A stretch of DNA of 52,300 nt from Gemmatimonadota bacterium (GTDB taxonomy: Bacteria; Gemmatimonadota; Gemmatimonadetes; Gemmatimonadales; Gemmatimonadaceae), in contig CANHTA010000005.1 in assembly GCA_947463135.1 (NCBI GenBank), positions 1 to 52,300 of the forward strand. The letters run 5' to 3'. Made by a program: the position numbers and the translations under genes. Below are positions 21,920-22,424 of this stretch, piece by piece. Position 1 is the stretch's first letter, and each line of letters opens with the position of its first letter. The notes under the pieces were generated by a model. The model ran no database searches. It was not told the origin of the DNA and was given only the letters and a program-made list of their open reading frames with translations.

Positions 21920-22168
21920 TCACCGGGCCAGTTTGCGCAGGGCGTGGAACAGTTCGTCGCGCAACACATCGAAGGGGCGATCGTAGGCAACGGGCAACAC
22001 CCGGACGACCAGATCGATGGGGGCAAGCTCAGGGAGTACCGCCACCCGGACAATCTCCCGAAGGCGTCGTTTGAGTCGGTTGCGATCGACGCCCGAGTGT
22101 TTGTACTTGGGAATCACGAAACCGACGCGGGGAAACGCATGAAGGGAAGCCATGGCGCGCACGTCCAA
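21920..22168 (-). CDS. rnpA: RNase P protein component, start codon unclear
   Basis: The RNase P protein binds the rnpB RNA and helps recognise the 5' leader of precursor tRNA. The RNR motif region GVDRNRLKRRLREIVR and PRVGFVIPKYKHSG are diagnostic. The longest form with a permitted start is the TTG at 22168 (82 aa), given here. However, the same frame continues upstream with clear RnpA homology: RLTRGSDLERVRHEGKRVRT matches the usual N-terminal helix, reaching at least 22234. Between the in-frame stop (22295-22297) and 22168 there is no ATG, GTG, TTG or CTG. The true product therefore needs a noncanonical start, a frameshift from rpmH or an overlapping frame, or a correction of the sequence. 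It lies between rpmH and yidD in the classical operon. Confidence 0.85.
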   Translation of the reverse strand: MDVRAMASLHAFPRVGFVIPKYKHSGVDRNRLKRRLREIVRVAVLPELAPIDLVVRVLPVAYDRPFDVLRDELFHALRKLAR

Positions 22169-22259
22169 CGAGGCCGTGCGTACTCGCTTCCCTTCGTGTC
22201 GAACCCGCTCGAGATCGGACCCGCGCGTGAGACGTTGCGCGCGCGGGAACGACCGGGAC

Positions 22260-22424
22260 TCAGGCGCCGGCGTACTTCGACGGGATCTGGACGGTCAACA
22301 CCTTGCGTCCCTTGCGACGACGACGGGCGAGAACCTCGCGGCCCCACTTCGTCTCCATACGTGCACGGAAACCGTGCTTGCGGACTCGCTTGGTGTTGCG
22401 CGGACGATATGTGGGCTTGCCCAT
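22260..22424 (-). CDS. rpmH: 50S ribosomal protein L34
   Basis: A 54-aa L34. It begins MGKPTYRPRNTKRVRKHGFR and continues with RMETKWGREVLARRRRKGRK, the standard basic L34 fold, then VLTVQIPSKYAGA, a C-terminal extension of about eight residues beyond the usual 44-46 aa. It belongs to the large ribosomal subunit, near the exit-tunnel side. The start ATG 22424 is certain from the family N-terminus. The stop at 22260 lies inside the coding extent of the rnpA frame homology (at or just past its N-terminus), so the two genes abut or overlap. It is divergent from dnaA, as in most bacteria. Confidence 0.96.
   Translation of the reverse strand: MGKPTYRPRNTKRVRKHGFRARMETKWGREVLARRRRKGRKVLTVQIPSKYAGA

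Follow-up and report, generated by a model that had tools for sequence, protein, structure and literature searches.

A missing canonical start codon in rnpA and its probable replacement by ACG at the end of rpmH in a family of Gemmatimonadota

The stretch of DNA analysed here (the window, 52,300 nt in full) carries on its minus strand the genes rpmH, rnpA and yidD, in that order (Table 1). The open RnpA frame (22294-21920, minus) lies in +1 relative to rpmH, and its residues 16-122 match Pfam Ribonuclease_P (1.2e-18), the match beginning at the FPR motif (residue 16). A first-pass annotation had reported that this frame holds no ATG, GTG, TTG or CTG between the TGA that closes it inside rpmH and a TTG well within the conserved protein, and codon-by-codon reading agrees. 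When started at the ACG proposed below, RnpA aligns with solved RnpA chains (2ljp and 1nz0, presumably those of E. coli and Thermotoga, and others) from residue 6 or 8 (E 0.0005-0.0009), hence the rnpA start must lie before approximately 22249. Among the window codons from 22294 to the rpmH stop, none other than this ACG differs from ATG by just one base. A gene starting there would share the last 14 nt of rpmH.

Table 1. Genes, codons and predicted structure at the rpmH-rnpA junction of the window
Feature	Coordinates	Strand	Remarks
rpmH (ribosomal protein L34)	22424-22260	minus	ATG 22424 to TGA 22262-22260; Pfam L34, 4.9e-20
rnpA as proposed	22273-21920	minus	ACG 22273 to TGA 21922-21920, 117 aa
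Proposed rnpA start codon ACG	22273-22271	minus	Over L34 Lys-Tyr-Ala (AAG TAC GCC); proposed from comparison with relatives
In-frame TGA closing the rnpA frame upstream	22297-22295	minus	Inside rpmH
TTC, first codon of the conserved RnpA FPR core	22249-22247	minus	
Predicted stem-loop	22247-22220	minus	Arms 22247-22241 (CCCGCGC) and 22226-22220 (GCGCGGG)
TTG, first canonical in-frame start	22168-22166	minus	35 codons past ACG, within conserved protein
ATG giving MASLHAF...	22153-22151	minus	Start of database entry P0007 (77 aa, 97% identical)
yidD, next gene after rnpA	21903-21691	minus	Ordinary GTG start at 21903 (our own reading)

Both genes were placed in relatives by iterated HMMs, and positions are counted from the base after the rpmH stop. 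Within the window's family the query found a match in 149 of 179 genomes, of which 147 were read; three loci were dropped before counting, one at a contig end (L063), one with a one-base difference in rpmH (L026) and one with Ns in rpmH (L071), leaving 144 usable rpmH-rnpA junctions. The sister sample comprised 60 loci from 36 genera in two other families of the order, a choice rather than all order-level genomes, and the outgroup sample 31 loci from seven other families of the phylum.

No ATG, GTG or TTG was present from -30 to the core phenylalanine, the interval used for counting canonical codons in the family, in 124 of the 144 junctions, which come from 33 genera. These carried an in-frame ACG (n = 116), ATA or ATT (n = 7, with ATA in five species of the window's genus and ATT in two of genus g18) or only a CTG (n = 1, L146). 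The other 20 loci include clear ordinary starts, namely TAA ATG in L111 and L135, TTG or ATG in L126, L131, L138 and L142, and further starts behind long linkers in L052, L083, L098 and L145; others (TTG or GTG at the core) may be accidental. The RnpA frame was found in all 30 genomes of the window's genus, the window's own included, and not one of them shows an ATG from -30 to the core, so the missing start is more than an accident or an error. As far as such comparison of genomes reaches, it shows both the missing canonical start and its conservation across the family.

Relative to rpmH, rnpA stands in +1 in 127 of the 144 family loci, in frame 2 in nine and in frame 0 in eight (13 and nine when five sister-family loci are included), and the +1 loci keep their frame through linkers of many lengths. 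Among these 127, the open frame ahead of the core is free of canonical starts in 95, and in 20 such starts occur only at -80 or beyond, so that a longer RnpA is possible there. Genus g5 (L036, L053, L062, L065, L068, L078, L092 and L147) has an rnpA frame open to -164, nearly all of rpmH, with an in-frame ATG at -116 in most of its loci, hence a longer, Thermus-like RnpA is possible in that genus. One of these, L147 (G202), has RnpA matches in two overlapping frames and the copy looks frameshifted. As for the dropped loci, L026, from one of the 30 genus genomes, has an additional base at the rpmH end, through which rnpA gains a TTG start a codon further along and the C-terminus of L34 is altered, and the RnpA N-terminus of this locus, MAPESRAFPR, is that of database entry P0005; L071 (G036) shows an apparent in-frame L34-RnpA fusion, apparent because two Ns lie inside rpmH.

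The family ACG sits at -14, over Lys-Tyr-Ala of L34, or at -17 in loci whose L34 has one extra residue, and the codon at this Lys-Tyr site in the 127 +1 loci is ACG in 119, ATA in five, ATT in two and ACA in one. TAC G also occurs in 14 of 15 comparable L34 genes (Tyr followed by G) with rnpA in another frame. Because Tyr-Ala of L34 largely forces ACG, finding it at this site is weak evidence when taken alone. Details from two genera go further than the forced codon. All three species of g18 have Tyr-Ser, and the two with rnpA in +1 use TAT TCC (giving ATT), while TAC TCC (ACT) occurs in the third, whose rnpA is in frame 2 with ACG at +2. L032, from the window's genus, carries ACA there and, further along, an AGGAG ahead of two in-frame ACG codons. 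A test of Tyr codons for avoidance of ATG found TAC in 119 of 119 +1 loci with G as the next base and TAT in seven of the eight with another base (Fisher 9e-11; TAT is used in 110 of 256 cases among the window genes), but we do not lean on this p-value since 14 of the 15 other-frame genes also use TAC and the loci share ancestry, with few independent changes.

The case for ACG is carried, so far as comparison can carry it, by the sister families, where an ACG behind a stop codon is not dictated by L34. A canonical start is absent at the rnpA front in 53 of 60 sister loci, and ACG is found at the start in 53 of 60, at -1 (n = 43), 0 (n = 7), +2 (n = 2) or -14 (n = 1). In the -1 class ACG is fused to the rpmH stop (TGACG or TAACG) and in the 0 class it stands directly behind the stop; within genus g49 the register changes and ACG is kept (TAA ACG in L179, TGACG in L198). 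Within the rnpA body, 1.4-1.9% of codons are ACG. All 52 loci with ACG at -1, 0 or +2 can pair, at -4.4 kcal/mol or better, with what we take to be the anti-Shine-Dalgarno string, the pairing ending 3-12 nt ahead of ACG, and the best mean pairing is -7.2, -6.0 and -5.7 kcal/mol for the three positions, respectively. The last rpmH codons here, such as GGA GGC or GGA GGC TCC, double as the rnpA Shine-Dalgarno sequence, for instance in L175, L185 and L253. In these families rnpA lies in frame 2 or 0 to rpmH, yet has ACG behind a strong Shine-Dalgarno sequence. The ACG of L184 has no Shine-Dalgarno sequence before it, four sister loci are without ACG (L149, L200, L264, L265) and one has ACG only at -10 (L263). 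Within the window's family itself just 2% of 121 loci have a Shine-Dalgarno sequence before the ACG.

Substitution patterns in 27 genus loci point to rnpA coding that sets in ahead of the rpmH stop. For the three codons that separate this stop from the core, pN/pS was 0.41 in the rnpA frame versus 1.74 and 14.1 in the other frames, and for the next six codons it was 0.24 versus 1.29 and 2.11; judged by this comparison, rnpA is shown to evolve as coding sequence all the way to the rpmH stop. Over the first 51 nt around the core, the predicted fold was more stable than in synonymous-codon shuffles, which drew on pooled codon usage, a limitation of the test (mean z -2.17 for the 27 genus loci, -1.90 for 81 other family loci and -1.19 for 60 sister loci), versus control means of +0.87, +0.35 and +0.59 for a stretch 90 nt further on in the genus, the other family loci and the sister loci. 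A second stretch, at +60, gave a mean z of -1.25 in the window's family. The fold is not strictly tied to ACG, because outgroups score -0.27 (31 loci) and family members with canonical starts -1.30 (n = 12). Across 25 distinct genus sequences the predicted stem pairs in 94.5% of cells with six double-change types, against at most 55% pairing and three double-change types in slid controls, and most stem pairs never vary.

We propose that rnpA likely starts at the near-cognate ACG, 14 nt before the end of rpmH, and that this would be a weak start giving far less RnpA than L34; we put the probability of this reading at roughly 0.8. This is the option of an ACG or other rare start raised in the first-pass annotation, and of the options listed there it is the one supported by comparison with relatives. 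Initiator Met-tRNA would pair with ACG with one mismatch. Initiation in the sister families would be led by the Shine-Dalgarno sequence, at a 1-nt overlap with the rpmH stop or directly behind it. As the Shine-Dalgarno sequence is missing in the window's family, we propose for it that ribosomes ending rpmH would re-initiate at the ACG just upstream, where the conserved downstream stem-loop would help to hold them. The cell's demand for a ribosomal protein far exceeds that for RnpA, hence a weak start fits rnpA, and the ACG would keep RnpA far below L34.

By analogy with infC and its AUU start, the weak start would also make RnpA sensitive to IF3. Such control is plausible in the genus because infC keeps an in-frame ATT, the classic start under IF3 control, at its expected start in seven of seven genus loci (L305 and L307-L312, with L310 from the window's own genome), and in nine of 11 in all. 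An in-frame ATT in infC was also seen in L302 and L306 of a sister family. A special initiator tRNA was sought in 30 tRNA loci from 43 matches, in which the Met tRNAs carry CAT and the lone CGT tRNA was typed as Thr. Tentatively, and with rather more doubt than confidence, the whole order may keep an ACG start for rnpA across four positions and three frames, assisted by structure and gated by IF3, so as to set the RnpA:L34 ratio, with ATG selected against.

Several other explanations were weighed. A programmed +1 frameshift at the rpmH end (GCC TGA), giving an L34-RnpA fusion, is unlikely. It would suit the +1 relation of the two genes and the conserved C-terminus of L34, and resembles prfB, a known case of +1 programmed frameshifting, in that a stop codon is followed by a reading frame in +1. 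The 127 +1 family loci differ from prfB, however, in having no conserved stop or slip site: the stop is TGA in 87, TAA in 28 and TAG in 12, and the codon preceding it varies. The sister-family frames, 2 or 0 with ACG and a Shine-Dalgarno sequence, also argue against it. Another non-canonical start, namely CTG, seems quite unlikely. One candidate is the leucine of RLTRG, used by database entry P0020, which is CTG in 54 of 88 family loci of the commonest spacing; the codons before this leucine evolve as coding sequence, however, and in the window it is CTC, so the RLTRG CTG is rejected there. The other candidate is a CTG at -4, present in 36 of 60 sister loci, including 31 of the 43 TGACG or TAACG loci. 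Anti-Shine-Dalgarno pairing peaks rather close to this CTG (-2 to 0), yet 86% of the 36 CTG loci still show pairing that satisfies the Shine-Dalgarno threshold, so a CTG start is possible in those sister loci. Against this codon as the general solution, it is absent from 15 sister loci, eight with a TAA-type overlap and seven with ACG directly behind the stop. TTG takes the -4 position, together with ACG at -1, in L176, L187, L188 and L271, and without ACG in L177 and L257.

A truncated RnpA, starting at the TTG or ATG of Table 1 in the manner of database entries of 77-87 aa, is very unlikely. Short proteins are common among database relatives, with at least 52 of the 120 listed (of 687) being 93 aa or shorter, and entries P0007, P0009 and P0024 begin well inside RnpA, the first at the equivalent of this ATG. 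The part upstream is, however, conserved as protein (pN/pS 0.20-0.24) and aligns with the solved RnpA structures. Similarly improbable is a long RnpA N-terminus read through rpmH, whether by nesting of the Thermus type or by a shift from the third frame. The overlap of rnpA and rpmH in Thermus was reportedly described by Feltens et al. in 2003, and as a precedent it is apt for the gene pair; its mechanism, with rnpA starting at or before the rpmH start and enclosing rpmH, cannot apply in the window because the in-frame TGA closes the rnpA frame. That frame is open through all of rpmH in 12 of 127 family loci. The third frame is indeed open through rpmH in the window, as the first-pass annotation noted (we place it at 22572-22114), but this openness spans the whole of rpmH in just 40 of the 127 loci. 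An error of one base in sequencing or assembly is hardly credible. The window's genome is a draft of 294 contigs; relatives share the same state, however, with 28 of the 30 genomes of the genus having a near-cognate codon at the Lys-Tyr site, among them three that consist of a single contig (L006, L017, L023), and the same condition in 33 genera, which excludes this option.

An ACG start for rnpA has parallels in the few non-canonical bacterial start codons characterised by experiment, of which the best known (infC and sigR) are regulatory (PMC5472188). Streptomyces sigR has a GTC start repressed by IF3, with GTC in 32 of 34 Streptomyces genomes and GTT in two, and infC starts with ATT in E. 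coli and ATC in Streptomyces (PMC5472188). As in these genes, a non-canonical start is conserved in many species and overlooked by gene finders, and the occasional GTT of sigR resembles the ATA and ATT found here beside ACG (PMC5472188). rnpA likewise lacks a canonical start (124 of 144 family and 53 of 60 sister loci) and has the same unusual codon in relatives. It differs from sigR and infC in the gene, in the codon ACG, and in occupying several registers to the upstream gene across sister families and the window's family.

In Thermus, rnpA and rpmH have AUG starts one nucleotide apart at the rpmH front, with rpmH inside rnpA (PMC9841429). The same gene pair overlaps with an unusual rnpA initiation in both cases, whereas here rnpA would share no more than the final 14 nt of rpmH and has no AUG. 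Termination-reinitiation coupling usually takes place at overlaps of 4 or 1 nt (PMC10666635). The sister families come close to this description with a 1-nt overlap in 43 of 60 loci (TGACG or TAACG for TGATG or TAATG) and a zero gap in 7 of 60, but ACG replaces ATG, and the 14-nt overlap of the window belongs to no common coupling class.

In an E. coli reporter set, ACG gave 0.1-1.5% of ATG output (PMC6925171). If the ACG start is real, its order-wide conservation in a core gene would extend the known natural starts by a codon that works poorly in E. coli (PMC6925171). It would also provide a natural test system, with the same codon in several registers and with and without a Shine-Dalgarno sequence, would explain the database entries that cut off the N-terminal part of RnpA in these bacteria, and raises the question of whether the IF3 level controls the supply of RNase P protein. 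A literature search that took in few subscription papers returned no report joining Gemmatimonas with rnpA, or Gemmatimonadetes with an ACG start codon.

By our own reading, 24 of the 31 outgroup loci offer an ATG, GTG or TTG in the interval from the rpmH stop to the core, the only such codon near L239's rnpA front is a GTG at -35, and ACG lies near the start in three (L223, L227, L241). The use of ACG is therefore characteristic chiefly of this order, though perhaps not of it alone; the three outgroup ACG codons may mean that it is wider, or may be partly chance. Three loci of outgroup family f9 (L226, L229, L231) are without ATG, GTG or TTG near the core, and the codon overlapping their rpmH TAG stop is ATA or GTA.
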